DNA of 64,000 bases from Tsukamurella spumae (GTDB taxonomy: Bacteria; Actinomycetota; Actinomycetes; Mycobacteriales; Mycobacteriaceae): contig NZ_JAAXOQ010000007.1 of assembly GCF_012396015.1 (NCBI RefSeq), positions 62,001-126,000 on the forward strand, written 5' to 3'. This document shows, piece by piece, positions 4,101 to 58,569 of the stretch; the first letter of the stretch is position 1; each line of letters begins with the position of its first letter. The notes beneath the pieces were generated by a model that was not told the origin of the DNA, did not search any database, and worked only from the letters and a program-made list of their open reading frames with translations. The translations under genes and the position numbers were made by a program.

Positions 4101-5771
4101 CTAGTGGTCGATCGCCTTCTCGACGCCGACACCGGTGAGCGAGCGCACCTCCATCTCGACCGCCTTTTCCGCCAGATCGGCGTCGGGCTTGCCGATCAGC
4201 GTGCCGATGATCGCGAGGCCGAAGCCGATCGGAATGGAGATCAGGCCCGGGTTCTCCAGCGGGAACCAATGGAAGTCCAGCGACTTGAACATCGACGTGG
4301 ACTTACCCGAGACGGCCGGGGAGAAGATGATCAGGACGATGGCCGAGATCAGGCCGCCGTACATCGAGAGCACCGCCCCAGTCGTGTTGAACCTCCGCCA
4401 GAACAGCGAGAAGATGATGGTCGGCAGGTTGGCCGATGCCGCAACGGCGAACGCGAGCGCCACGAGGAAGGCGATGTTCTGCCCCATCGCGCCGATGCCC
4501 AGGATGATCGACGCGATACCGATGACGACCACCGTGATGCGCGAGACGCGCACCTGCGCCTCCTCGGATGCCTTGCCGCGCTTGATGACACCGTTGTAGA
4601 TGTCGTGCGCAAGGCTCGCGGACGCCGTGATCGCGAGGCCGGCGACGACCGCGAGGATGGTCGCGAACGCGACCGCCGAGATGACCGCCATCAAGATGGT
4701 GCCGCCGAGCGAGAACGCCAGCAGCGGAGCGGCCGAGTTCACCCCGCCCGGAGCCTTGGCGATGACATCGGCGCCGACGTAGGCCGCAGCGCCGAAGCCC
4801 AGCACCAGCGTGAAGATGTAGAACGCGCCGATCAGGCCGATCGCCCAGGTGACCGAGCGGCGCGCCTCCTTCGCGGTGGGGACGGTGTAGAAGCGCATGA
4901 GCACGTGCGGCAGGCCGGCGGTACCCAGGACGAGCGCGAGCGCCAGCGAGAGGAAGTCCAACTTGGTGGTCTCGTTCTTGCCGTACTTGAGGCCCGGCTC
5001 GATGATCTTCTCGCCCACGACCTCCTTCGCACCGGTCTTGGCATTGGTGACCGTGCCGTCCATCGCCTTCTGCAGCAGATCGGAGAAGTTGCCCTTCACC
5101 GCCGCCAGCACCATGAGTGTCATCAGCAGTGCGCCACCGACGAGCAGGACGGCCTTGACCATCTGCACATAGGTGGTGCCCTTCATGCCGCCCACCAGGA
5201 CGTAGACGATCATCAACACGCCGACCACCGCGACCACGATCGCCTGGCCGGTGTGCCCCTTGATGTTGAGCAGCAGCGCGACGAGGCCACCCGCGCCCGC
5301 CATCTGGGCGATCAGGTAGAACAGCGACACCGTCAGCGTCGCGAGGGCGGCGGCCATCCGGACCGGGCGCTGCTTGAGCCGGAAGCTCAGGACATCGGCC
5401 ATGGTGAACTTGCCGACATTGCGCAGCCGCTCGGCGACCAGCAGCAGGGCCACGAGCCACGCCACGAGGAAGCCGATCGAGTAGAGGAAGCCGTCGTAGC
5501 CCTGTACGGCGATGGCGCCGCAGATGCCGAGGAAGCTGGCGGCCGAGAGGTAGTCGCCCGCGATGGCGAAGCCGTTCTGCGGGCCGGTGAACGTGGCGCC
5601 GCCGGTGTAGAAGTCGGTGGCCTTCTGGGTGGTCCGGCTGGCACGGATCACCAGGCCCATGGTGAGGCCGATGAACAGGAGGAAGATGACGATGTTGAGC
5701 GTGGTCGAGCCGACCTGCTCGCCCACCTGGATCGTCCGGGGATCGAACGAGAACGCGCGGATGTCGGTCAC
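4101..5771 (-). CDS. Sodium:solute symporter, acetate/monocarboxylate (ActP/MctC) type
   Basis: The 556-residue polytopic membrane protein belongs to the solute:sodium symporter family. Recognisable segments are FYTGGATFTGPQNGFAIAGD and YLSAASFLGICG near the N-terminus, typical of ActP and MctC carriers of acetate, propionate and pyruvate, followed by about a dozen hydrophobic helices. It overlaps the upstream DUF485 gene by 4 bases (ATGA), which indicates translational coupling; a small DUF485 membrane protein is the usual partner of these carriers. The transported acid cannot be told from sequence alone. Confidence 0.85.
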   Translation of the reverse strand: MTDIRAFSFDPRTIQVGEQVGSTTLNIVIFLLFIGLTMGLVIRASRTTQKATDFYTGGATFTGPQNGFAIAGDYLSAASFLGICGAIAVQGYDGFLYSIGFLVAWLVALLLVAERLRNVGKFTMADVLSFRLKQRPVRMAAALATLTVSLFYLIAQMAGAGGLVALLLNIKGHTGQAIVVAVVGVLMIVYVLVGGMKGTTYVQMVKAVLLVGGALLMTLMVLAAVKGNFSDLLQKAMDGTVTNAKTGAKEVVGEKIIEPGLKYGKNETTKLDFLSLALALVLGTAGLPHVLMRFYTVPTAKEARRSVTWAIGLIGAFYIFTLVLGFGAAAYVGADVIAKAPGGVNSAAPLLAFSLGGTILMAVISAVAFATILAVVAGLAITASASLAHDIYNGVIKRGKASEEAQVRVSRITVVVIGIASIILGIGAMGQNIAFLVALAFAVAASANLPTIIFSLFWRRFNTTGAVLSMYGGLISAIVLIIFSPAVSGKSTSMFKSLDFHWFPLENPGLISIPIGFGLAIIGTLIGKPDADLAEKAVEMEVRSLTGVGVEKAIDH

Positions 5772-6160
5772 TTCGGCTCCCCCTTGCCCAGCGCGACGTC
5801 GCCGCCGTCACCCTTGAGTTCCGCTTCGATACTCTCGCGGAGATCCGTCGCCATCGGATCGATCGTGTTGTTCGCGAACCGCACGTACGCCCAGGTGATG
5901 GCGAACGTGCTGACGAACTGGCCGAGGCCCAGCACGAGCGCGACATTGATGTTGCCGAACAGACGCTGGCTCATGAAGTCATGCGCGTAGGTGGCGAGCA
6001 GCACGTACAGGAGGTACCAGAGCAGGAAGGCAACGGAGATCGGGATCACGAACGACGCCAGCCTACGGCGGAGTTCGTGGAATTCCTTACTGTCGTAGGC
6101 GCGCTGATAGACCGCGGCCGTTTCCTCTTCGTTCACGAGCGGAAGTGTGTCACGGACCAC
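5768..6160 (-). CDS. DUF485 small membrane protein, symporter partner
   Basis: This is a protein of up to 130 residues with two transmembrane helices (around FVIPISVAFLLWYLLYVLLA and VALVLGLGQFVSTFAITWAY) and a cytosolic N-terminal segment YDSKEFHELRRRLASF, the hallmark of DUF485. Genes of this family precede ActP-type symporters, as here. The first possible start is GTG at 6160; a second in-frame GTG at 6136 would remove 8 residues. Neither has a clear ribosome site, so the start is uncertain. Confidence 0.85.
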   Translation of the reverse strand: MVRDTLPLVNEEETAAVYQRAYDSKEFHELRRRLASFVIPISVAFLLWYLLYVLLATYAHDFMSQRLFGNINVALVLGLGQFVSTFAITWAYVRFANNTIDPMATDLRESIEAELKGDGGDVALGKGEPK

Positions 6161-6236
6161 ACGCGCGAGGGGTTTGAATCGTCAACAAACCGCAATGCAA
6201 CCCCCTGCAACCCGCCATCGGCGGACCACCGCTTCG

Positions 6237-7496
6237 TCAGGCGTCGAGCGCCCTGCGCGTCGCGGCGGCGATCTCGGCGACCTGCTCGTCGGTGGTGACG
6301 AACGGGGGCGAGTACTGGAGCGTGCCGAGCCCGGCCGCGCGTCCCGACACACCTTGGGCACGAAGCTTCTTCACCATCGCCATCGCCTCGGCGGGCTCGT
6401 GCAACTGCACCCCCGCTACCGCGCCGACGCCGCCGCGGACCTGCTTGACCTTCGGATGATCGGCCAGCGCCGAGAGCTCCCGGAGCAACGTGTCCTGCAG
6501 CCGCAGCGCCTCGGCCACGAGGTTCTCCCGCTCCATGATGTCGAGGACCGCCATCGAAGCGGCCGCGGCGGCCGCGTGCCCGCCGTAGGTGTACCCGTGG
6601 CGCCACCACACCCCACCGGCGTAGAAGGGCTCCGCGACGTGCGGAGCGACGAACAGCGCACCCATCGGAATGTAACCGCTGGTGAGTCCCTTCGCGGTGG
6701 TCATCAGGTCCGGCTGCAGGTCGAACCGGCTCGATGCGAACCACGCGCCGCCGATGCGACCGAAGCCCGTGATCACCTCGTCGGCGATGAACAGCACGTC
6801 GTGCTCGCGGCAGATGTCACGGACCTCCCGCAGGTAGCCCTCCGGCGGCGGGAGCAGGCCACCCGCGCCGATCACCGGCTCTGCGACGAAGGCCGCGATC
6901 GTGTCCGCACCCACTCGCTCGATGAGCCCGAGCAGTGCCTTCGCGTCGTCCCACGCGATCGTGGCGGTGTCGTCGAACAGCACGCCGCCGTAGCCCTCGG
7001 CGTTCACCGGGATGCCGCCGAGTGAGGTGCCTCCGACGTGCATGCCGTGATAGGCGTTCGACCGTCCTACGATGAGCTTCTTCTCGGGCCTGCCCTCCTC
7101 CTGCCAGTAGCGTCGGGCGAGCTTGATCGCCGAGTCCACCGAGTCGGAGCCGCCGGAGGTGAAGAAGACCTTGCTGTCCGGCACGGGCGCGATGCCCTGC
7201 AGGCGGTCGGCCAGCGCCACCGTCGTGTCCGTGGCGGCGTCGCCGAAGCCGGTCACGTGCGCGACCTTGAGCAACTGATCACGCACCGCGTCGGCCACCT
7301 CGGCGCGGCCGTGACCGATGTTGGCGAACCACAGCCCCGCCGTCGCGTCGAGGTAGCGATTGCCGTCGGCGTCGAAGACGTACGGGCCGTCGCCGCGGGC
7401 GAAGACGAAGGCGCCGTCGCGCTGTACGGCGCCCATGTCGGCGAAGCCGTGCCAGAGTGCCGATGAGGTCGTGGGTCGCTGTCCGCTCATAGGCAT
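6237..7496 (-). CDS. Class III (omega) aminotransferase, PLP-dependent
   Basis: The 419-residue enzyme has the class III aminotransferase signature. These are GLWFANIGHGR near the N-terminus, SGGSDSVDSAIKLAR for phosphate binding, LFIADEVITGFGR with the PLP-contacting Asp, and TTAKGLTSGYIPMGA with the Schiff-base Lys. Family members transfer amino groups from omega-amino acids or polyamines to pyruvate or 2-oxoglutarate; the substrate here is not evident. Two ATG codons (7496 and 7490) are possible starts. The gene is divergent from hrpA with only 12 bases between the start codons, so the promoters overlap. Confidence 0.85.
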   Translation of the reverse strand: MPMSGQRPTTSSALWHGFADMGAVQRDGAFVFARGDGPYVFDADGNRYLDATAGLWFANIGHGRAEVADAVRDQLLKVAHVTGFGDAATDTTVALADRLQGIAPVPDSKVFFTSGGSDSVDSAIKLARRYWQEEGRPEKKLIVGRSNAYHGMHVGGTSLGGIPVNAEGYGGVLFDDTATIAWDDAKALLGLIERVGADTIAAFVAEPVIGAGGLLPPPEGYLREVRDICREHDVLFIADEVITGFGRIGGAWFASSRFDLQPDLMTTAKGLTSGYIPMGALFVAPHVAEPFYAGGVWWRHGYTYGGHAAAAAASMAVLDIMERENLVAEALRLQDTLLRELSALADHPKVKQVRGGVGAVAGVQLHEPAEAMAMVKKLRAQGVSGRAAGLGTLQYSPPFVTTDEQVAEIAAATRRALDA

Positions 7497-7501
7497 AAAC
7501 T
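7496..7501 (+). promoter_or_regulatory. Putative hrpA -10 element (leaderless start)
   Basis: TAAACT matches TANNNT and lies 7 bases before the hrpA ATG, predicting a leaderless transcript. It overlaps the first codon of the divergent aminotransferase gene. Confidence 0.45.
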
Positions 7502-7508
7502 AGAGCAA

Positions 7509-10500
7509 ATGAGTGAACAGGAGACGCGCACCGTCGCAACGGCGCAGAACGGAGCCGCCCCGACGCGCACGGCCAAGCGCGACCTGTACGCCGCCCTCGG
7601 TACCGACACCGCACCCGCCGTCACCCTCCGGGACGAGACGCGGCTGCGGGGCAGGCTCAAGCGCGCCAAGGATTCCGACCTCCCACGACTGGCCCGCGAT
7701 GTCGACGCCGCGCGGGAACGGTTCGCGGTGCGCGCCGCCGCCGTGCCCGCGATCGTGTACCCGGAGAACCTGCCGGTCAGCGCTCGCCGCGACGAGATCG
7801 CGAGGGCCATCGCCGAGAACCAGGTCATCATCCTCGCCGGCGAGACCGGCTCGGGGAAGACCACTCAGCTGCCGAAGATCTGCCTCGAACTCGGTCGGGG
7901 CGTGCGCGGCATGATCGGCCACACCCAGCCGCGGCGCCTCGCCGCCCGCTCCGTCGCCGAGCGCATCGCGGAGGAGACCGGTACCGAGCTGGGCGACACC
8001 GTCGGGTACGCCGTTCGGTTCACCGACAAGGTCTCACCGAAGACCTCCGTCAAACTCATGACCGACGGCATCCTGCTGCGTGAGCTCACTCGCGACCGGC
8101 TGCTGCGCGACTACGACACGATCATCATCGACGAGGCGCACGAGCGCAGCCTCAACATCGACTTCCTGCTCGGCTACCTGCGGCAGATCCTCTCCCGGCG
8201 ACCCGATCTCAAGGTGATCGTCACCTCCGCGACCATCGAGCCGGAACGGTTCGCGGCGCACTTCGCGCGGCCCGACGGTACGCCGGCCCCGGTCATCGAG
8301 GTCAGCGGTCGCACCTATCCCGTGGAGGTCCGGTACCGCCCGCTCGACGAGATGACCGATGACACCGAACCGCTCGACCAGGTCACGGGCATCGTGCACG
8401 CCGTGAACGAGCTGTCCCGCGAGGCTCCGGGCGACGTGCTGGTCTTCCTCTCCGGCGAGCGCGAGATCCGCGACGCCGCCGAGGCGCTGGCCGCGCACGT
8501 CAAGCCCGGCACGGAGATCCTCCCGCTCTACGCGCGCCTGTCCTCCGCCGAGCAGCACCGGGTGTTCGCCCCGCACACCGGGCGCCGGATCGTGCTGTCC
8601 ACCAATGTCGCCGAGACCTCGCTCACGGTGCCGGGGATCAAGTACGTGGTGGACACGGGCACCGCACGCATCTCGCGCTACTCGACGCGCACCAAGGTCC
8701 AGCGGCTGCCGATCGAGCCGATCTCGCAGGCGTCGGCGCAGCAGCGCTCGGGCCGATGCGGTCGCACCTCCGACGGCATCGCGATCCGCCTCTACTCCGA
8801 GGACGACTTCGACGCGCGCCCCGTCTACACCGATCCCGAGATCCTGCGCACCAACCTCGCCTCGGTCATCCTCTCGATGACGGCGCTCGACCTCGGGGAG
8901 GTCTCCGCCTTCCCGTTCGTGCAGCCGCCCGACGAGCGCGCGGTCCGCGACGGGACGGCCCTGCTCGAGGAGCTGGGCGCCCTCGAGGACGCCGCCCCGG
9001 GACACAAGAAGCTGACCCCGGTCGGCCGGCAGCTCGCCGACCTCCCCGTCGATCCGCGGATGGCCAGGATGCTGGTGGCGGCCCGCGAGTTCGGTGTACT
9101 GCCGGAGGTCCTCGTCATCGTCGCGGGCCTGTCCATCCAGGACGTGCGGGAACGGCCCGCCGAGCACCGTCAGGCCGCGGACGCCCAGCACGCCCGCTTC
9201 GCCGATCCCACCTCCGATTTCCTGTCCTACCTGAACCTGTGGCGCCATCTCGGCGAGCGCCGCGCCGAGCTGAGCTCGAGCGCCTTCCGCCGCGAGTGCC
9301 AGCGCGAGTTCCTGCACTACGTGCGGATCCGCGAATGGCAGGACCTGCAGGGCCAGCTCCGACAGATCTGCCGGGACCTCGGGTGGAAGCTCGAATCGCT
9401 CGGCCGGGAACCGGCACCGTCCGCCGATCTCATCCACCAGGCCATGCTGGCCGGGCTGCTGTCCCAGATCGGCCTGCGCGAGCCCGACGGGCGGGAGTTC
9501 CTCGGCGCGCGGGGCGCGAAGTTCATGGTCTTCCCCGGCTCGGCCCTGTACAAGAAGCCGCCGCGACTGGTCATGGCCGGGGAGCTGGTGGAGACCTCGC
9601 GGCTGTTCGCGCGGACCGTCGCGAAGATCGAGCCGGAGTGGGCGGAGAAGCTTGCGGGCCCGCTCGCCAAGCACCACTACTCGGAACCGCACTGGTCCAC
9701 CAAGCGCGAGGCCGTCCTCGCCAAGGAGCGGGTCACGCTGTTCGGGGTGCCCCTCGTGGCGGAACGCACCGTGAACTACGGCCGGATCGACCCGGTGGTC
9801 GCCCGCGATCTGTTCCTGCGCCACGCGCTGGTGCAGGGCGAATGGCGCACCCGGCACGCGTTCTTCGCGCGCAACCGCGCCCTGCTCGACGACGCCGAGT
9901 ACCTCGAGGACAAGGCCCGCCGGCGCGATCTCGTCGTCGACGAGGACGGGCTGTTCGCCTTCTACGACCGCAGGGTCCCCGAGGGCATCGTCTCCGCTCG
10001 GCACTTCGACGCCTGGTGGAAGAAGGCCTCCCGCGGGGAGCCGACGCTGCTGGACTTCACCGCGGAGGACCTGCTCGCCGACGGTGCCGCCGAGGTCACC
10101 GCGGACGCGTACCCCACCACGTGGCTGCAGGGCCGCGTCGAGGTGCCACTGAAGTACCGGTTCGAGCCGGGCGCCACCGACGACGGGGTGACCGCGCGGA
10201 TCCCCGTCAAAGACCTGGCGACGGTGCGCGCGGACGGCTTCGAGTGGCTGGTGCCGGCGATGCGCGAAGAACTCGCGACGGCGCTGATCAAGTCGCTGCC
10301 GAAGCAGCTTCGCCGTGAGGTCGTGCCCGCGCCCGACTTCGCCGCGGCCGCACTCGCACGGCTCACTCCGCGCGCGGAGCCGCTGGCCGACGGGCTCGCG
10401 CGGGAGCTGACCCAGTTGTCCGGCACGGTGATCCGTGCCGAGGACTTCTCCCCCGCCGCATTGCCGGATCACCTGCGGGTGACCTTCGTGGTGATCGGCG

Positions 10501-11465
10501 ACGACGGCCGCGAGCTCGGTTCCGGCAAGGACCTCGACGCGCTCAAGCGGCGGCTCGGCGCGGCGGTGCAGGAGGACCTGTCGAGCCGCGCGGGCGCCTA
10601 CGAGCGCGCCCCCGCCCGGGAGTGGACCGCGGCCACCCTCGGCGACGTGCCGCGCACCATCGACACGGAGGTGCGTGGCAGCCGGGTGACCGGGTTCGGG
10701 ACCCTCTATCCCGACGGTGACCGAGCCGGCGTCCGGGTGGTCGCGAACGAGCCCGATCAGCTGGCGCTGATGGGGGCGGGCCTCGACGTGCTGCTGTCGA
10801 ACGTGCTTCCCGCGGCGCACAGGTCGGTGCTGCAGTCGGTCGGGCAGCGGGACCGGCTGGCACTGTCGCAGAGCCCGTACCCGACGCCGATGGACCTGGT
10901 CGCCGACTGCCGCCGGCGCGCCATCACCGATCTCCGGGGGCGTGCGGGCCTCGCCTGGACGCCTGAGGAGTTCACGGCCTTGACCGCGTCCGTGCGTGCG
11001 GGCCTGGGCGCCACGGTGCAGCAGTACTTCGCCGATGTCGCGGCGGCCGTCGCGACCGCGACGGAGGTGCGCGGCGCGATCGCCTCCGCACCGCCCGCGC
11101 TCCGGGACGCCGCGGACGACATCGCCGAGCAGTTGGACGGGCTCTTGTTCCCCGGGTTCGTGGCCGCCACGCCGGGCGTGCACCTGCGGCACCTGCCGCG
11201 GTACACGGCCGGCGCCGCCGCGCGATGGGCGGCGCTGCCTGCGGCGATCGACCGGGACGACCGCGGAACGGCGACGCTCGACCGCGTGTACGGCGCGCTG
11301 ACGGCCAAGCTCGACACGCTGCCCCAGCACCGGCGTGATGCGGCGCTGGACCAGGCGAACTGGTTGATCGAGGAGCTCCGCGTGAGCCTGTTCGCACAGT
11401 CGCTCGGCACCGCGGGATCGATCTCCGAGAAGAAGGTACTGGCCGCGATCGCGGCCCTGACCTGA
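7509..11465 (+). CDS. hrpA: HrpA, ATP-dependent RNA helicase (DEAH box)
   Basis: The 1318-residue protein is the size of the bacterial HrpA family. Walker A GETGSGKTT lies near residue 115 and the DEAH motif (IIIDEAHERS) near 210. SATIEPERFA follows as motif III, and the QRSGRCGR motif VI lies near residue 415. After the helicase core come the ratchet domain and the long C-terminal DUF3418 region typical of HrpA. The enzyme unwinds or remodels RNA-protein complexes; in E. coli it acts on stalled ribosomes and in mRNA processing. The start follows a TANNNT hexamer by 7 bases with no ribosome site. Confidence 0.93.
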   Translation: MSEQETRTVATAQNGAAPTRTAKRDLYAALGTDTAPAVTLRDETRLRGRLKRAKDSDLPRLARDVDAARERFAVRAAAVPAIVYPENLPVSARRDEIARAIAENQVIILAGETGSGKTTQLPKICLELGRGVRGMIGHTQPRRLAARSVAERIAEETGTELGDTVGYAVRFTDKVSPKTSVKLMTDGILLRELTRDRLLRDYDTIIIDEAHERSLNIDFLLGYLRQILSRRPDLKVIVTSATIEPERFAAHFARPDGTPAPVIEVSGRTYPVEVRYRPLDEMTDDTEPLDQVTGIVHAVNELSREAPGDVLVFLSGEREIRDAAEALAAHVKPGTEILPLYARLSSAEQHRVFAPHTGRRIVLSTNVAETSLTVPGIKYVVDTGTARISRYSTRTKVQRLPIEPISQASAQQRSGRCGRTSDGIAIRLYSEDDFDARPVYTDPEILRTNLASVILSMTALDLGEVSAFPFVQPPDERAVRDGTALLEELGALEDAAPGHKKLTPVGRQLADLPVDPRMARMLVAAREFGVLPEVLVIVAGLSIQDVRERPAEHRQAADAQHARFADPTSDFLSYLNLWRHLGERRAELSSSAFRRECQREFLHYVRIREWQDLQGQLRQICRDLGWKLESLGREPAPSADLIHQAMLAGLLSQIGLREPDGREFLGARGAKFMVFPGSALYKKPPRLVMAGELVETSRLFARTVAKIEPEWAEKLAGPLAKHHYSEPHWSTKREAVLAKERVTLFGVPLVAERTVNYGRIDPVVARDLFLRHALVQGEWRTRHAFFARNRALLDDAEYLEDKARRRDLVVDEDGLFAFYDRRVPEGIVSARHFDAWWKKASRGEPTLLDFTAEDLLADGAAEVTADAYPTTWLQGRVEVPLKYRFEPGATDDGVTARIPVKDLATVRADGFEWLVPAMREELATALIKSLPKQLRREVVPAPDFAAAALARLTPRAEPLADGLARELTQLSGTVIRAEDFSPAALPDHLRVTFVVIGDDGRELGSGKDLDALKRRLGAAVQEDLSSRAGAYERAPAREWTAATLGDVPRTIDTEVRGSRVTGFGTLYPDGDRAGVRVVANEPDQLALMGAGLDVLLSNVLPAAHRSVLQSVGQRDRLALSQSPYPTPMDLVADCRRRAITDLRGRAGLAWTPEEFTALTASVRAGLGATVQQYFADVAAAVATATEVRGAIASAPPALRDAADDIAEQLDGLLFPGFVAATPGVHLRHLPRYTAGAAARWAALPAAIDRDDRGTATLDRVYGALTAKLDTLPQHRRDAALDQANWLIEELRVSLFAQSLGTAGSISEKKVLAAIAALT

Positions 11466-11471
11466 CCTGCG

Positions 11472-11942
11472 CTACGCGGCGTCGGTCGGGTCCGCGGCGG
11501 CGCGGGTGCGGAGGTCGCGGATCGCGGCCTCGAAATCCTCGATGGACGAGAAGCCCTGGTAGACGGAGGCGAACCGCAGGTAGGCGACCTCATCGAGATC
11601 GCGCAGCGGCCCGAGAATGGCCAAGCCCACCTCGTTGGCGGGGACCTCGGCGACGCCGGTGGCGCGGATGGCCTCCTCGACCTGCTGGGCGAGCTTGTGC
11701 AGATCGTCCTCGGCGACGTCCCGCCCCTGGCAGGCCCGGCGCACCCCCTTCATCACCTTCTCGCGACTGAAGGGCTCCGTGACGCCGTTGCGCTTGACCA
11801 CGGCCATGACCGCGCTCTCGACCGTGGTGAACCGGCGCCCGCACTCGTTGCACGAGCGGCGCCGGCGGATGCCCTGCCCGTCGTCGAACACCCGCGAGTC
11901 GACCACTCGGGTGTCCTCGTTCTTACAGAACGGGCAATGCAT
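11472..11942 (-). CDS. nrdR: NrdR, repressor of ribonucleotide reductase genes
   Basis: The 156-residue protein is the usual NrdR length. It opens with a zinc ribbon, MHCPFC (Cys3, Cys6) and SCNECGRRF (Cys31, Cys34), followed by an ATP-cone domain ([20 protein letters not shown]). NrdR binds ATP/dATP and represses nrd operons. I chose the ATG at 11942 over a much longer in-frame extension because AGGAGGTG lies 6-7 bases upstream and the family always begins at the zinc ribbon. It follows chiZ on the same strand with a gap of 214 bases, the order seen beside lexA in mycobacteria. Confidence 0.95.
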
Positions 11943-12156
11943 GGGTTCACCTCCTGCGCGTGCGCGCTCGGATGCACGGAGGGGCAACTGCAGCACCGTG
12001 GCCCCTGCCACGGCCGTGCCCCGCGATCTCGACACCGAGAATACTCGGCGCGGCAACGGCACCACGTTATCGAGGTCCCTCACGCGCCCACCCTGCCGGG
12101 AATCCACTATGGCCATTCGAGTGCTCATCCGCTTCTCCTTCGCTCGTTGCGTGCCG

Positions 12157-52962: not shown

Positions 52963-53580
52963 CTACATGGAACGGACGACGGAGCCGAGCAGATCGATGT
53001 CGGCATCGGCGCCCTCGAAGGTGACGAGCGCCTCGTCGCGCCCGAAGGCCCACATCGTCACCTCGCCGATCGCCCCGATGACGGCCACCTCGGGTCCGCG
53101 CCCGACGGTCGCGACCGTGCCGGTCTCCGTCGTGAGGCTGATCCGCAGCGGCGCGCCGCGCAGCGTCAACCGCGCGATCCGCGCGACCACGGAGGTCAGA
53201 CCGTGCTGGACGCGCACATCGAGGGGGCGCGGCGTCCAGCCGGGCGCGGCACGGCGGATGTCCTCGGCGTGCACGAAGTACTCGCCGAGGTTCGCCTGCT
53301 CGTCGACGAGCCGGAACGGCGAGAACCGGGGTGGCCCGCCTGCGACCGTGGCCAGGAGCTCATCGAAGGGTCGAGCGGCGATGCTCGCCTGGACCCGCTC
53401 GGTGTGGCCCGCGAGCGGCGGGATCATGATGCCCGCCGTGGCGTCGAGCCTCCCCTCGCGCAGGACGAGATGGGCGAGCAGCTCACGCACCGTCCACTCC
53501 CCACAGAGCGTGGGGGCGTCGGGACCGGCGGCACGGGCCGCGTCGACGAGTGCAGCGCGCTGCAAGCGAGCAGGTTTCAC
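52963..53580 (-). CDS. TIGR03085 / DinB-like (maleylpyruvate isomerase-type) protein
   Basis: The 205-residue protein matches the TIGR03085 actinobacterial family related to the mycothiol-dependent maleylpyruvate isomerase/DinB fold. It starts ALVDAARAAGPDAPTLCGEW and contains TVRELLAHLVLREGRLDATA, with the His of the putative metal site, and GEYFVHAEDIRRAAPGW. Members are thought to bind a divalent metal and possibly mycothiol; activity is unknown. It starts with GTG at 53580. It is divergent from the secreted-protein array and lies 74 bases upstream of ftsK on the same strand. Confidence 0.82.
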   Translation of the reverse strand: MKPARLQRAALVDAARAAGPDAPTLCGEWTVRELLAHLVLREGRLDATAGIMIPPLAGHTERVQASIAARPFDELLATVAGGPPRFSPFRLVDEQANLGEYFVHAEDIRRAAPGWTPRPLDVRVQHGLTSVVARIARLTLRGAPLRISLTTETGTVATVGRGPEVAVIGAIGEVTMWAFGRDEALVTFEGADADIDLLGSVVRSM

Positions 53581-53660
53581 GTCGCCACCCTATCGCCCCC
53601 GACCGGCCGGCACCGCGCCGCACACACACGCTTCTGTAGTGAAATGAAGATGCACTGTCG

Positions 53661-53666
53661 TATACT
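53661..53666 (+). promoter_or_regulatory. -10 element of the five-gene secreted-protein operon
   Basis: TATACT is the best -10 hexamer seen in the window. It lies 6 bases before the ATG of the first array gene, so the mRNA is probably leaderless. I see no other promoter within the array, which fits one transcript for all five genes. Confidence 0.6.
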
Positions 53667-53672
53667 TCGCGC

Positions 53673-54275
53673 ATGATTGCGAAGACCACGCAGACCTCAA
53701 TCCGTACGCGGGTCGCCTCGGCGACCGCGATCCTCGCCACCGTCGCTGCGGGCGCGACACTCGCCGCCCCCGCCGCCTCCGCGGCCCCGACGAACAACGA
53801 CCTGGTGCTGACGCAGGCGCAGTTCCCGGCCGGCTCCACCGACTACCGCGCCGGTCGACTCACCGGTAGCGCCATCAACATCAAGGCGGGCGCTCCGCAG
53901 CCGTGCGTCGACGCTGCGAACCGGCTCAACGCCGCGACCGCTTCCGCACAGAACGCCGGCGCCGCCGCCCGCAACGGCTACTCCTCCATGGTCAGTATCG
54001 TAATCTCCCCGATGCAGGGCGGCCTGTGGCGCTCGATGGCGCAGGCCTGCTCCGGCCGGGTCGCCGAGCTCGCCGTCCCCGGTGACCTCGCGCGCTACAA
54101 CCCCGCGGTCATCACGTACGGGGGCAAGACCAACTCCACCATCGAGGGCGCCGCCGACGTCAACGGCCGCACGGTCAACGTCCTCGTCCGCGGCATGTCC
54201 GACACCCCCGCCAACGCCGGCAAGTTCTGGCAGGTGTTCCGCGCGCAGATCCAGAAGGTGCAGGCGGCCCGCTGA
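53673..54275 (+). CDS. Secreted two-Cys protein, array member 1
   Basis: The 200-residue protein has a Sec signal peptide of about 38 residues (hydrophobic core AILATVAAGATLAAPAASA, cleavage before APTNND) and no lipobox. The mature part has two cysteines (PQPCVDAANRLNAAT and AQACSGRVAE) and ends GKFWQVFRAQIQKVQAAR. The C-terminal FWQ-FR-QI-KV pattern and the Cys pair recur in the next four genes, so this is a paralogous family. I do not recognise it. The stop overlaps the next ATG (TGATG). Confidence 0.8.
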   Translation: MIAKTTQTSIRTRVASATAILATVAAGATLAAPAASAAPTNNDLVLTQAQFPAGSTDYRAGRLTGSAINIKAGAPQPCVDAANRLNAATASAQNAGAAARNGYSSMVSIVISPMQGGLWRSMAQACSGRVAELAVPGDLARYNPAVITYGGKTNSTIEGAADVNGRTVNVLVRGMSDTPANAGKFWQVFRAQIQKVQAAR

Positions 54276-54856
54276 TGCGCGCCCGTCACGTTCTGGTCGG
54301 TTCGACGGTGACCTTCCTCGCCCTCGCCGGCCTGCCTGCGGTCGCGCAGGCGGCTCCGGTGGTTCCGGCCCGCGCCGTTCTGGCCGCCAACGAGTTCCCG
54401 GCGGGTTCGACCGGGTACTCCGTCCGGTCAGAGGTCGGCGAGCCGGCCGGAGAGCTGATCTCCGACACCGCGTGCGGGGCTGCGGAACACCGCGTCGACA
54501 AGGCCCTCGCAGGTGCCCACAGCACCGACGCCAAGGCCCGCCGCGGTGCACTCGACCTCGAGACGAGTGTCATCGAGCGTCCGATGGCCACCGTGATGCG
54601 TGGTGTGATCACGACGTGTTCGGCGAAGCTGCGCTATGGCACCCGCGCGATCGTGAAGCCACTTCCGGCCGACCTGAGCCGCCACCAGGGCTTCACGGTC
54701 AGCACCGGCGACAACCAGACTCTGATCGCCGTCGTCGAGGTCCGCGGCGCGTCCGTCGGCGTCCAGGTCAGCGGCACGTCCGCCACACCCGCCGACCCGG
54801 CCGCGTTCTGGCAGCTCGTCCGTGCACAGGTCGCCAAGGTGGAGCGGCAGCCGTGA
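54275..54856 (+). CDS. Secreted two-Cys protein, array member 2
   Basis: The 193-residue protein has a signal peptide ending PAVAQA before APVVPARAVLAANEFPAGST. The mature domain has Cys in SDTACGAAEHR and ITTCSAKLRYG and ends AFWQLVRAQVAKVERQP. The N-terminal pattern A-x2-(I/V)L-x-A-x-EFP-x-GS-x2-Y-x-V is shared with members 3 to 5. The ATG overlaps the stop of member 1, and the stop overlaps the GTG of member 3 (GTGA). A role as a secreted sensor or binding protein is only a guess. Confidence 0.8.
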   Translation: MRARHVLVGSTVTFLALAGLPAVAQAAPVVPARAVLAANEFPAGSTGYSVRSEVGEPAGELISDTACGAAEHRVDKALAGAHSTDAKARRGALDLETSVIERPMATVMRGVITTCSAKLRYGTRAIVKPLPADLSRHQGFTVSTGDNQTLIAVVEVRGASVGVQVSGTSATPADPAAFWQLVRAQVAKVERQP

Positions 54857-55431
54857 TCGCGCGACGTCTTTCCGTCATCGGCACGGTCGCCCTTGCGACT
54901 CTGGCCGTCGTTCCCGGCGTCGCCCAGGCGGCTCCGGTGAACACCGCCCGGACGATTCTTGCCGCCCACGAATTCCCGCTCGGTTCGACCGGCTACAAGG
55001 TCGAGACCGAGACGTTGAAGCCGTTCGACGAGCCCGACAACGCGAACACCCCATGCTCGCGATTCATCCGCACGATGTTCGAGCGACTCGGTGGCGCACA
55101 GGTGACCAACGCCCAAGTGACCCGCGGAACGACTGAGGTCGAGGTCGCCGTGGTGAACCGTCCCATGGCGGCGCTGATGGCCGAGGGCTTCCCCACGTGC
55201 GAGGCCCAGGTCGACCCGAGGGCTCGTTCGACGGTGCTCGCCGCCCCAGGTGATCTCACGCGCCTGCGTCCGTTCGTCTTCAGGGACGCCGACGAAATGC
55301 AGGCATGGGTCGACCTACGGGGCATCTCCGTCAACGTCACGGCGACCACCAAGAACCGCGGTCCCGCCGATGCCGAGACCTTCTGGCAGACCCTGCGTGC
55401 GCAGGTTGCCAAGGTCGAGCGGCAGCCGTGA
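54853..55431 (+). CDS. Secreted two-Cys protein, array member 3
   Basis: The 192-residue protein starts with GTG inside the stop of member 2. The signal peptide ends VPGVAQA before APVNTARTILAAHEFPLGST. Cys occur in NTPCSRFIRTMF and FPTCEAQVDPR, and the C-terminus is TFWQTLRAQVAKVERQP, nearly identical to member 2. It is coupled to member 4 by another GTGA overlap. A much longer frame extends upstream only because it is open across member 2. Confidence 0.8.
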   Translation: MIARRLSVIGTVALATLAVVPGVAQAAPVNTARTILAAHEFPLGSTGYKVETETLKPFDEPDNANTPCSRFIRTMFERLGGAQVTNAQVTRGTTEVEVAVVNRPMAALMAEGFPTCEAQVDPRARSTVLAAPGDLTRLRPFVFRDADEMQAWVDLRGISVNVTATTKNRGPADAETFWQTLRAQVAKVERQP

Positions 55432-56012
55432 TCGCCCGACGGTCCGCCGCCGCAGGCGCGCTCGCTCTCGTGATCGCCGGTGCCGTTCCCGCACTGAGTG
55501 CCGCGGCGCCGGTCGATCCGGCCCAAGCGATCCTGTCCGCGGCCGAGTTCCCCGTCGGCAACGACGCGTCGTACCGGGTCACGCACACCGTCAATCGCGC
55601 GCCGACCAGGGCATCGGGCCTCACCACCGACGGCTGCGAACTCGCCGGTGTGCGCATGATGAGCGCCGCCGCGGGATCGCGATCCACCGAGGCGATGGCG
55701 TTCCAGGGCAAGACCTATGCATCGGTGGAACTGACCGACCGTGCCCTGGTGGCGCCCATCCGCGCCACGATGGACGCCTGCCGCAACACCCCGAACGCCG
55801 ACATCCCGGTATTGATCGGCACACCCGCGGAGTTCACCCGATACCGGCTGATCGCCGGCGCGGCGTCGCACGGCAAAGAGCTGAACGGCTGGGCCGAGGT
55901 CCGTGGGGTCACCGTCCAGGTGGTGGTGGACGCGAGCCCGAATCCCCCTGACTACGACACGTTCTGGCGACTGTTCCGCACCCAGATCGCCAAGATCGAG
56001 AGGCAACGATGA
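55428..56012 (+). CDS. Secreted two-Cys protein, array member 4
   Basis: The 194-residue protein starts with GTG overlapping the stop of member 3. The signal peptide ends AVPALSA before AAPVDPAQAILSAAEFPVGN. Cys occur in TDGCELAGVRMM and MDACRNTPNAD, and the C-terminus is TFWRLFRTQIAKIERQR. The central region differs strongly from its neighbours, consistent with divergence after duplication. An ATGA overlap couples it to member 5. Confidence 0.8.
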   Translation: MIARRSAAAGALALVIAGAVPALSAAAPVDPAQAILSAAEFPVGNDASYRVTHTVNRAPTRASGLTTDGCELAGVRMMSAAAGSRSTEAMAFQGKTYASVELTDRALVAPIRATMDACRNTPNADIPVLIGTPAEFTRYRLIAGAASHGKELNGWAEVRGVTVQVVVDASPNPPDYDTFWRLFRTQIAKIERQR

Positions 56013-56584
56013 CCGCTCACCGGGCCCTCGCAACCGTCGTGGTCGGCGCGGTGATCGCGTCGACGTTCCCGGCGACCGCGTCCGCTGCGCCCGTCGTCCC
56101 GGCCCGCGCCGTGCTCACCGCGGCGGAGCTCCCTTCCGGGAGCAAGGATTACATGGTCTTCCCGATCGCGGCATTGCCCGCCCCGAACGGCCCCGGTCCC
56201 AATAGGTCCTCACCGTGCGAGACGGCGTCCTACGCGCTGCAGAGAGCGGTGGCGGGTGCGCAAGCGGTGGAGGCGGACGCGTGGCGCGGGGACACGCACT
56301 TCTACGCGAGCGTGTTCGGCCGCGCGGCGACAGCGGAGTTCACAGCTCAGGATTCCGCGTGCGGCGAGACCGCCAACGCCACGAGACTTCCGGTCCCGGC
56401 CGACCTGGTACGACTCGATCCGGTGCTCCTTCGGGTGAACGCCCACCGAGTCACCGGCATGGCCGATGTCCGCGGTGCGACGGTGGGGGTGATCGCCTCG
56501 TCGCCGGATGACAAGCCGTTGAACCTCGATACGTTCTGGCAGGTGTTCCGCGCGCAGATCGCCAAGGTCGAGAAACAGCCCTAG
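56009..56584 (+). CDS. Secreted two-Cys protein, array member 5
   Basis: The 191-residue protein starts with ATG overlapping the stop of member 4. The signal peptide ends FPATASA before APVVPARAVLTAAELPSGSK. Cys occur in SSPCETASYALQ and DSACGETANAT, and the C-terminus is TFWQVFRAQIAKVEKQP. It is the last gene of the array and converges on rnj with 26 bases between the stops; I see no clear terminator there. Confidence 0.8.
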   Translation: MTAHRALATVVVGAVIASTFPATASAAPVVPARAVLTAAELPSGSKDYMVFPIAALPAPNGPGPNRSSPCETASYALQRAVAGAQAVEADAWRGDTHFYASVFGRAATAEFTAQDSACGETANATRLPVPADLVRLDPVLLRVNAHRVTGMADVRGATVGVIASSPDDKPLNLDTFWQVFRAQIAKVEKQP

Positions 56585-56610
56585 CACCAAACGCTTGACG
56601 AAGATGTTCG

Positions 56611-58569
56611 CTACTCCCCCACGACCATCACGGTCGGCACGATCATCGGCCGGCGACGGTAGGCCTTGTCCACCCAGCGTCCCACGGCCCGTCGAACACC
56701 CTGGGCGATGCGGTGGGCCTCCTTGACACCCTCGGCGGCCAGATCGGCGAGCACGTCCTCGACGAGCTGCTCCGCCTCCTTGAGCGCGGTCGGATCGTCG
56801 GAGAAGCCGCGGCCCGACACCTCGGGCTTGCTGACGGCGTTGCCCTCCTTGTCGATGGCGACGCTGATCGAGATGAAGCCGCCCTCGCCCAGGACCAGCC
56901 GGTCGGACAGCGTGGACTCGCCCACGTCGCCCACCGAGTTGCCGTCCACGTACACGTGGCCGACGGGCACCTGCCCGACGATCTTCGCGACACCGTTGAC
57001 CAGGTCCACCACGACGCCGTCCTCGGCGAGCATGATGCGATCCTTCGGCACACCGGTGGCCTCGGCCAGCGCGGCGTTGGCGCGCAGATGCCGCCACTCG
57101 CCGTGCACCGGCATGGCGTTGCGCGGGCGCACCGCGTTGTACAGGTACAGCAGCTCACCGGCGCTGGCGTGGCCGGACACGTGGACCTTGGCGTTCTGCT
57201 GGGTGATCACCTTGGCGCCCAGCTTCGACAGCCCGTTGACCACGGCGAACACCGAGTTCTCGTTGCCCGGGATCAGGGAGCTGGCGAGCACGATCAGGTC
57301 GTTCGGCGAGATGGTGATGTTGCGGTGCTCGCTGCGGGCCATCCGGGACAGCGCCGCGAGCGGCTCGCCCTGCGAACCCGTGGAGATGAGCACGACCCGG
57401 TCGTCCGGCAGCGACGCGGCGGTGTCGAGGTCCACCTCGACGCCCTCCGGCAGGTGCATGTAGCCGAGCTCCTGCGCCAGCGCCATGTTCCGGACCATCG
57501 AGCGGCCGACGAACGCGATCCGCCGGTTGTGGGCGACGGCCACCTCGGCGATCTGCTGGATGCGGTGCACGTGCGAGGCGAAGGACGCCACGATCACGCG
57601 TCCCTTCGCGCGGCCGATCACGTTGTCGAGCACGGGGCCGATCTCCCGCTCGGGGGTCACGAAGCCGGGCACCTCGGCGTTGGTCGAGTCCACGAGGAAC
57701 AGGTCGACGCCGGCGTCACCGAGTCGGGAGAAACCCGCCAGGTCGGTGAGGCGGCCGTCGAGCGGCAGCTGGTCGAGCTTGATGTCGCCGGTGTGCAGCG
57801 CCACCTGGCCGCCGGCGTGGATCGCGACGGCGATCGCGTCGGGGATCGAGTGGTTGACCGCGAAGTACTCGCACTCGAAGGGGCCGTGGCTCGTGGACTC
57901 GCCCTCGCGGACCTCGACGAGCTTGGGCCGCAGACGGTGCTCGTCGCACTTGGCCTTGACCAGCGCCAACGTGAACTTCGCGCCGACCACGGGGATGTCG
58001 GGGCGGAGCCGCAACAGGAAGGGCACGGCGCCGATGTGGTCCTCGTGGCCGTGCGTGAGGACGATCGCCTGGACGTCCTTGATCCGGTCCTCGATGTACC
58101 GGAAGTCCGGCAGGATCAGGTCGACGCCGGGCTGCTGGTCCTCGGGGAAGAGCACGCCGCAGTCCACGATGAGGAGCTTGCCGTCGTATTCGAAGACGGT
58201 CATGTTGCGACCGATCTCCTTGATGCCGCCGAGCGCGACGATCCGCATGCCGCCCTTGGGCAGCTTGGGCGGGGCGCCCAACCGCTCCACGGGCGCCGAC
58301 GGTGCCTTCTGCCGGTCGTTGCCGCGCCGCCCGCCACCGCGCCGGCCGCCACCGCCCTTCGCCGCGGCCTTCTGCGGCTGCTGCGCGGGGGCCTTCGCCG
58401 CCGTCGCCTCGGACGCCTGGCCGGCCTGGGCCTTCGCCGCCGGGGCCTTGTCCTCGACGACGACGCGCGCCGCCGAGGTGGCGATCACCGGCTTGGGCTC
58501 GGCAGGCGGACCCGCCTGCCGGGTGGCCTTACGGCCCCGTCTGGCTCCACCTGCTGCACCGTCGGTCAT
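56611..58569 (-). CDS. rnj: Ribonuclease J
   Basis: The 652-residue metallo-beta-lactamase/beta-CASP ribonuclease has a low-complexity basic N-terminus of about 105 residues. The core begins RIVALGGIKEIGRNMTVFEY, with the metal site ALTHGHEDHIG-type motif (VLTHGHEDHIGAVPF) near residue 173, and VSGHASAGELLYLYNAVRPR lies in the beta-CASP region. It has 5' exo- and endonuclease activity on RNA and processes rRNA and mRNA in mycobacteria. It starts 3 bases after the dapA stop, matching the dapA-rnj order of mycobacteria. Confidence 0.95.
   Translation of the reverse strand: MTDGAAGGARRGRKATRQAGPPAEPKPVIATSAARVVVEDKAPAAKAQAGQASEATAAKAPAQQPQKAAAKGGGGRRGGGRRGNDRQKAPSAPVERLGAPPKLPKGGMRIVALGGIKEIGRNMTVFEYDGKLLIVDCGVLFPEDQQPGVDLILPDFRYIEDRIKDVQAIVLTHGHEDHIGAVPFLLRLRPDIPVVGAKFTLALVKAKCDEHRLRPKLVEVREGESTSHGPFECEYFAVNHSIPDAIAVAIHAGGQVALHTGDIKLDQLPLDGRLTDLAGFSRLGDAGVDLFLVDSTNAEVPGFVTPEREIGPVLDNVIGRAKGRVIVASFASHVHRIQQIAEVAVAHNRRIAFVGRSMVRNMALAQELGYMHLPEGVEVDLDTAASLPDDRVVLISTGSQGEPLAALSRMARSEHRNITISPNDLIVLASSLIPGNENSVFAVVNGLSKLGAKVITQQNAKVHVSGHASAGELLYLYNAVRPRNAMPVHGEWRHLRANAALAEATGVPKDRIMLAEDGVVVDLVNGVAKIVGQVPVGHVYVDGNSVGDVGESTLSDRLVLGEGGFISISVAIDKEGNAVSKPEVSGRGFSDDPTALKEAEQLVEDVLADLAAEGVKEAHRIAQGVRRAVGRWVDKAYRRRPMIVPTVMVVGE

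Follow-up and report, generated by a model that had tools for sequence, protein, structure and literature searches.

What use would a bacterium have for a string of small, exported and related proteins that share their two ends and differ in the middle? The question is raised by five tandem genes at positions 53673–56584 of a 64,000-nucleotide stretch of the Tsukamurella spumae genome (hereafter, the window), which an earlier sequence-only reading had described as translationally coupled, secreted paralogues. From comparison with the corresponding locus in other Tsukamurella genomes, we regard these genes, with moderate confidence, as an expressed array of recombining cassettes for small exported binding proteins—a repertoire that is reshuffled through its conserved ends.

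All five genes lie on the forward strand and follow one another with the TGATG, GTGA, GTGA and ATGA overlaps previously described. Gene 1 (53673–54275; ATG start, 200 aa) has a 37-residue leader of its own type and a core type exclusive to the first slot of the arrays; gene 2 (54275–54856; ATG, 193 aa), in slot 2, overlaps it by TGATG. Genes 3 (54853–55431; 192 aa, its GTG start lying within the GTGA overlap) and 4 (55428–56012; GTG start, GTGA overlap, 194 aa) occupy internal slots, and gene 5 (56009–56584; ATG start, ATGA overlap, 191 aa) comes last, with a core type that occupies slot 2 in another genome of the genus (G005, locus L044). That the genes are paralogous was borne out by searches in their own genome, where gene 1 matched the other four (E 9.5e-20 to 1.8e-9), and 24 columns are invariant in the alignment of the five proteins. 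Judged by eye, each product begins with a signal-peptide-like leader, in agreement with the proposed export, and its mature part contains exactly two cysteines, the expected single pair; both are kept in 58 of 58 array members from 14 Tsukamurella genomes.

Two conserved blocks, likewise on the forward strand, frame the middle of each protein. The shared C-terminus recurs in all five members (in gene 2, from FWQLVRAQVAKVERQP to the stop, 54806–54856; in the others, 54225–54275, 55381–55431, 55962–56012 and 56534–56584). Its residues follow an amphipathic-helix pattern, and its DNA in gene 2 includes a ribosome-binding-like stretch, AAGGTGGAG, together with the GTGA start of gene 3. The block at the start of the mature part (APVVPARAVLAANEFPAGSTGY in gene 2, 54353–54418; elsewhere 53784–53846, 54931–54996, 55506–55574 and 56087–56152) had been presented as an EFP-x-GS pattern of members 2–5. 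This motif is exact in members 2 and 3, but member 4 reads EFPVGN and member 5 ELPSGS, and the block is not confined to those four, as member 1 carries it too (QFPAGS).

Conserved ends and exchangeable cores

Start codons throughout the arrays were assigned from the length of the leader. From position 2 onwards, mean pairwise identity (bins of 8 residues) was 0.48–0.67 over the first 24 mature residues, 0.14–0.59 in the middle and 0.52–0.81 over the last 24. Leaders did not go with the cores behind them: position-2 leaders standing over different cores were 0.61 identical (60 pairs), whereas position-2 and internal leaders were only 0.33 identical over the same core (6 pairs) and 0.36 over different cores (235 pairs). 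On the evidence of these alignments, leaders track array position and cores move between positions. The core tree tells the same for the cores, since it requires 12 changes of position label where the least possible number is 4 (one of its 58 labels is wrong, which leaves position 2 unaffected), and its starred branches force at least five changes for position 2. Position 1, in turn, forms one clade.

Single genes also look composite. In triplet tests of six mosaics, picked once alignments and tree had been inspected, four gave 0 or 1 of 20,000 permutations reaching the observed value and the others 64 and 143, against 5079–12153 of 20,000 in three non-mosaic controls. Breakpoints fell at codons 17–46 (five of six at 32–46), and most of those in the relatives lie in the N-terminal block. 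The clearest picture of a single exchange comes from L044 and the array of T. tyrosinosolvens (L052): genes 1, 3, 4 and 5 are mostly 79–97% identical in 90-base segments, whereas core 2 drops to 41–58% from about codon 40 to codon 155, the sole within-gene replacement between the two; the spacer behind gene 5 differs as well. In the window, the middle of gene 3 is wholly unlike that of slot 3 in T. pseudospumae (39–56% identity, compared with 78–100% for the remaining genes, again in 90-base segments), and a sixth, lipoprotein-like gene of T. pseudospumae is missing from the window array. Moreover, L044 and L052 have in position 2 two core types that come after the position-3 core in the window, L050 and L046; in L044 and L052 they stand before it, a change of order that loss alone does not explain.

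For all this traffic, the cores are maintained rather than free-running, as indicated by low ratios of non-synonymous to synonymous substitution (dN/dS) in ortholog pairs: in ten of twelve, the ratio was 0.19–0.39 for whole genes and 0.15–0.41 for cores. The two widest pairs gave 0.41 and 0.56 for the whole gene, with cores at 0.59 and 0.89 and ends near 0.2.

Genomic setting, distribution and expression

The array has a constant place in the chromosome. Upstream lies a divergent gene for a TIGR03085 family metal-binding protein (52963–53580, reverse strand) and downstream a convergent RNase J gene (rnj; 56611–58569, reverse strand), both in the same position in all 16 Tsukamurella genomes compared. 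The sequence-only reading had placed the array between ftsK and rnj; the neighbourhood was right, but the TIGR03085 gene intervenes on the ftsK side. FtsK, TIGR03085, rnj and dapA flank the locus in 14 of 14 cases (13 relatives plus genome G011).

Between these flanks, copy number varies widely. Fifteen of the 16 genomes gave a match, and 14 hold an array proper, with 58 genes in total (1, 2, 2, 3, 3, 4, 5, 5, 5, 5, 5, 6, 6 and 6 copies); one array consists of gene 1 alone. A single divergent copy occupies the site in the fifteenth genome, G011. In the sixteenth, G012, the site is empty, and only some 50 nt separate the TIGR03085 gene from rnj. No internal stop codon occurred in any array match of this genus search. 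Independent annotation of the counterpart in T. tyrosinosolvens NCTC13231, to which genome G015 is identical over 14,498 bases, lists five coding sequences, all as ‘hypothetical protein’, with the same starts as chosen here; three of their junctions overlap, by 1, 4 and 4 nt, and the other is a gap of 71 nt. In three arrays (L043, L045 and L051) the last member has, by eye, a lipobox-like leader and is probably lipid-anchored; the window has no such member.

Named genomes scanned with one peptide pattern yielded relatives in T. pseudospumae, T. sputi, T. conjunctivitidis and two further species, and every true match (five of ten) was from Tsukamurella. Likewise, among the best nine candidates from each of 397 genomes of the order, three genomes, all of Tsukamurella, gave full-length members; as the wide searches took the best 9–12 candidates per genome, distant members in other genera may be missed. 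Weak matches elsewhere (G069, G080, G181 and several more) were partial, in the first set mostly with stops, and we put them down to chance. Eight pattern matches on viral contigs included no relative, and no phage match was found either. The few, single or double matches to PADLOC and PHROGs (best E 0.015 and 0.0081, respectively) were likewise judged to be chance. The single ‘plasmid’ match, NZ_LR134457.1 (L159), was rejected as evidence of plasmid carriage: although labelled ‘plasmid 15’ in the T. tyrosinosolvens NCTC13231 deposit, it has ftsK, rnj, dapA and further genes arranged as on the chromosome and is probably a chromosome fragment.

As for expression, a candidate promoter on the forward strand (GTGAAA, 16 nt, TATACT; 53639–53666) was the one site found, against 0.2 expected in shuffled sequence. 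Its –10 hexamer (53661–53666) ends 6 nt before the ATG of gene 1. The sequence-only reading had already proposed a TATACT promoter here, and conservation backs the proposal: all 14 arrays have a TANNNT hexamer before the first ATG, which lies at 6 nt in two (the window included) and at 7 nt in 12, and reads TATACT in nine. Such a distance fits a leaderless mRNA, which the array probably has. Some relatives have, on visual inspection, an inverted repeat around the –10 box; the window has none, and the feature was dropped.

Coupling, too, gained support at the sequence level. Of 44 junctions in the arrays, 35 overlap (23 as GTGA, 3 as ATGA and 9 as TGATG) and nine are gaps of 28–121 nt. The codons of the KVE segment form a AAGGTGGAG-like ribosome-binding stretch ahead of the next GTG, and where this pre-stop segment has valine, the codon is GTG in 18 of the 23 genes whose next junction is a four-nucleotide overlap, compared with 3 of 17 others (Fisher p 0.0003, an optimistic value since the rows are related and not independent). 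We conclude that, at the level of codons, the DNA of the C-terminus has a second use, in that it supplies the next gene with its ribosome-binding site and its start. This role explains, at least in part, why third-position identity between non-orthologous pairs is raised to 1.21–1.49 times the codon-usage expectation in the C-terminal block, compared with 0.97–1.0 times in the core. At the far end of the array, only 26 nt (56585–56610) separate it from the convergent rnj, and no terminator-like site was found there; the two transcripts may hence run into each other.

A probable relation to DUF5642

That the proteins belong to no recognised family, as first reported, still stands: none of the five window proteins scored above a Pfam or NCBIfam cut-off (the lone NCBIfam row, at E 9, is chance), and one-by-one Pfam scans of 28 of the 58 array members gave nothing besides a single chance match at E 0.066. 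For DUF5642 (PF18702) specifically, none of the five reached the Pfam cut-off and none of the 28 matched at E 0.1. A relation to this family is nevertheless suggested by way of intermediates, the direct link being weak. In profile comparisons, the array (58 rows) scored 98.7% over the full length against a set of 21 bridging proteins, and these scored 97.6%, again over the full length, against 11 DUF5642 domains; controls stayed at or below 0.6% (reversed profiles) and 3.2% (PknH_C, 30 rows). The bridging set comprises 20 Tsukamurella proteins and a lipoprotein of another genus (G421, E 1.2e-6), all retrieved with the array profile, so that their likeness to the array is partly selected and that to DUF5642 is not. 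The DUF5642 set holds nine domains from one other genus (presumably Mycobacterium) and two from Tsukamurella, where members above the cut-off occur in 2 of 16 genomes.

What connects the three groups, besides this full-length similarity via the bridging proteins, is a pair of invariant cysteines some 48–52 residues apart, in register in the array–bridge–DUF5642 profile alignments displayed, and a hydrophobic C-terminal segment. Export also appears to be common to the array and DUF5642 (by eye, from the leaders in the array and the lipobox-like leaders of a DUF5642 pair in L098), and DUF5642 genes form tandem pairs in four of four genomes with a strong match. The differences are nevertheless substantial: the mature part has a median of 165 residues in the array, 185 in DUF5642 domains and 204 in the bridging proteins, and array members mostly lack a lipid anchor and sit in longer, recombining arrays. 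Because they stay below the Pfam cut-off, we name them DUF5642-like and not members. No well-characterised family was assigned to all five, the nearest being DUF5642, itself uncharacterised and convincing only via intermediates.

The DUF5642 profile finds PDB entry 4TMD at E 9.6e-67. According to the structural report, this is the Mycobacterium smegmatis orthologue of Rv0999, a surface lipoprotein without assigned function that shows weak likeness to FrpD and to the Mog1p-like fold, with a common motif in which a C-terminal helix flanks antiparallel beta strands (PMC5233953). For the C-terminal segment of the array, the helical hydrophobic moment averages 0.48 where the background is 0.24 (s.d. 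0.13), which is consistent with the C-terminal helix of this motif. FrpD of Neisseria and the Mog1p-like folds are themselves two steps away from the array, and the same paper judged the similarity insufficient for homology (PMC5233953). Searched directly against the PDB, gene 2 had no match, and the matches of the array profile, mostly G-protein gamma subunits at E 0.15 or above, were set aside as chance. Also rejected was PknH_C (PF14032), considered because it is an exported domain of similar size with cysteines and is present in relatives of the same order: profile similarity was 0.2%, and no PF14032 match was found at E 0.001 in the window’s own genome.

Further relatives lie outside the array. 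Tandem pairs of exported DUF5642-like proteins were seen at L139 (in the same genome as the window, G000:C28:18500-20800), L057, L058, L141 and L142, of which the L058 pair adjoins a GCS2-family gene. Solitary and closer relatives of the array are L053:2736-3317, L055:3202-3801 and L054:3224-3946; two of these lie near a BTAD-FHA regulator gene and one beside an MspA-type porin gene. The DUF5642 genes of the other genus (presumably Mycobacterium) stand in tandem pairs at L098 (600-2080), L099/L104, L100/L105 and L101/L107.

What the array may be for

In the explanation we favour, a single promoter would give one leaderless mRNA across the array, and the observed stop/start overlaps, with C-terminal codons serving as the ribosome-binding stretch of the next gene, would cause the members to be made together. 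The leader would direct the export of each product, and its two conserved cysteines would close it with a single disulfide. It would be related to the DUF5642 lipoproteins, though shorter and divergent, and from this kinship would probably consist of a beta sheet with a C-terminal helix, the conserved FW..R.Q..KV segment, running across it. Through the conserved N- and C-terminal blocks, homologous recombination would be able to exchange, remove or insert middle domains while export, coupling and frame stay intact; the mosaics can be seen in the genes, and we infer the molecular recombination step from them. The middle domain would be the specificity part, and the whole a repertoire facing diverse external partners, among which molecules from competing bacteria, from phages or from the surroundings are the most plausible. 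Of the two roles offered by the sequence-only reading, a set with varied ligands fits better than one complex: whole-gene dN/dS is low in ten of twelve ortholog pairs, yet cores are swapped between positions.

A bolder extension, put forward only tentatively, would see in the locus a polymorphic recognition system that a mycomembrane bacterium exports. Always expressed and modular, it would use position-specific ends (leader, coupling signal, C-terminal helix) as sockets into which recombination plugs specificity cores, in the service of immunity against rivals’ toxins or of phage evasion. We know of no counterpart of such a system in Mycobacteriales, and, by title, the matches listed in literature searches on DUF5642/Rv0999 and on Tsukamurella (secreted proteins, comparative genomics, tandem lipoproteins) held nothing on this array.

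Several observations weigh against the recombining repertoire of DUF5642-like proteins that we favour. Compared directly, the array and DUF5642 profiles scored 41% over half the length, and three solitary array-type relatives scored 0.9% against DUF5642. The comparisons of copy number and cores are between Tsukamurella species, and the empty site of G012 is known from a single 4,249-base contig of a fragmented assembly. Three pairs of position-2 leaders with intermediate core identity were only 0.42 identical. The contrast between the window and T. pseudospumae in gene 3 may possibly reflect differential loss from a longer ancestral array instead of a swap. An excess of amino-acid change was looked for in close ortholog pairs and not seen. 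Finally, the protein ends are no more alike within than between genomes (N-terminal block 0.564 versus 0.594, C-terminal block 0.743 versus 0.759), so that homogenising gene conversion of the whole array is not demonstrated; at synonymous sites, within-genome similarity exceeded that between genomes in 7 of 11 genomes for each block, with 28 of 1000 permutations for the N-terminal block, a marginal result, and 179 of 1000 for the C-terminal block.

Other explanations draw on the same data. The members could form an exported immunity array, each neutralising one toxin variant of kin or rivals (as for TilA/Csa or TipC), in an orphan island without a toxin. The architecture is that described for tipC, esaG and DUF576/TilA (PMC9484751, PMC10730906), and L043, L045 and L051 end in a lipoprotein-like member (lipobox by eye). 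Yet the immediate flanks are housekeeping genes with no toxin gene (the rest of the genome was not searched for toxins), most members lack the lipid anchor of TilA, and none of the 28 scanned members matched a Pfam immunity family; we consider this role unlikely, if the least so among the alternatives. Somewhat less probable are surface antigens or decoys varied under phage or host-immune pressure. Being exported, copy-variable and mosaic, the products would suit that role, and the faster cores of the two widest pairs (0.59 and 0.89, against ends near 0.2) point the same way; the other ten of twelve pairs, with core dN/dS of 0.15–0.41, do not, nor was any phage or viral relative found. Tsukamurella is, besides, largely environmental, which also counts against it. 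A precedent comes from Staphylococcus aureus, where copy variation of the csa1 lipoproteins changes immune stimulation (PMC7360770).

Two alternatives remain. Tight coupling (35 of 44 overlapping junctions), the single promoter and the recurrence of tandem pairs in the wider family would suit one heteromeric surface or periplasmic complex of fixed stoichiometry, the first role proposed by the sequence-only reading. That proposal is poorly supported, given copy numbers of 0–6 in 16 genomes with constant flanks, a genome with gene 1 alone, and cores that change place and order; a fixed five-part complex is unlikely, and we rate the complex in general as quite improbable. A neutral, lineage-specific expansion, in which redundant copies drift and rise or fall in number with hardly any effect on function, would accommodate the genome that lacks the array and the one with a single gene. 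It is hard to square with both cysteines in 58 of 58 members, the lack of internal stops in the genus search and dN/dS of 0.19–0.39 in ten of twelve pairs, and appears to us the most improbable of all.

If the recombining repertoire is real, it offers a compact example from the order that contains the mycobacteria, in which gene ends serve export, coupling and recombination together. DUF5642, whose lipoproteins have a solved structure but no assigned function, would gain a family context, and the array, which is simple to delete and belongs to a minor genus, would lend itself to probing what a DUF5642-type fold binds.

Recombining arrays of exported paralogues are already known from firmicutes and from antigen families. 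Among the firmicute examples, tipC and esaG are strings of non-identical paralogues with recombination between them, tipC having homology blocks at both gene ends (PMC9484751), and the DUF576/TilA/Csa lipoproteins vary in copy number and are shuffled by recombination (PMC10730906, PMC7360770). The traits of TipC, EsaG and TilA/Csa1/Lpl (DUF576)—tandem non-identical paralogues, variable copy number and recombination via conserved blocks—are all found in the Tsukamurella array, too. It differs from the firmicute immunity and lipoprotein arrays in that the 28 scanned members share no Pfam family with them and no toxin gene is adjacent, and in its build as a leaderless-type operon held together by stop–start overlaps.

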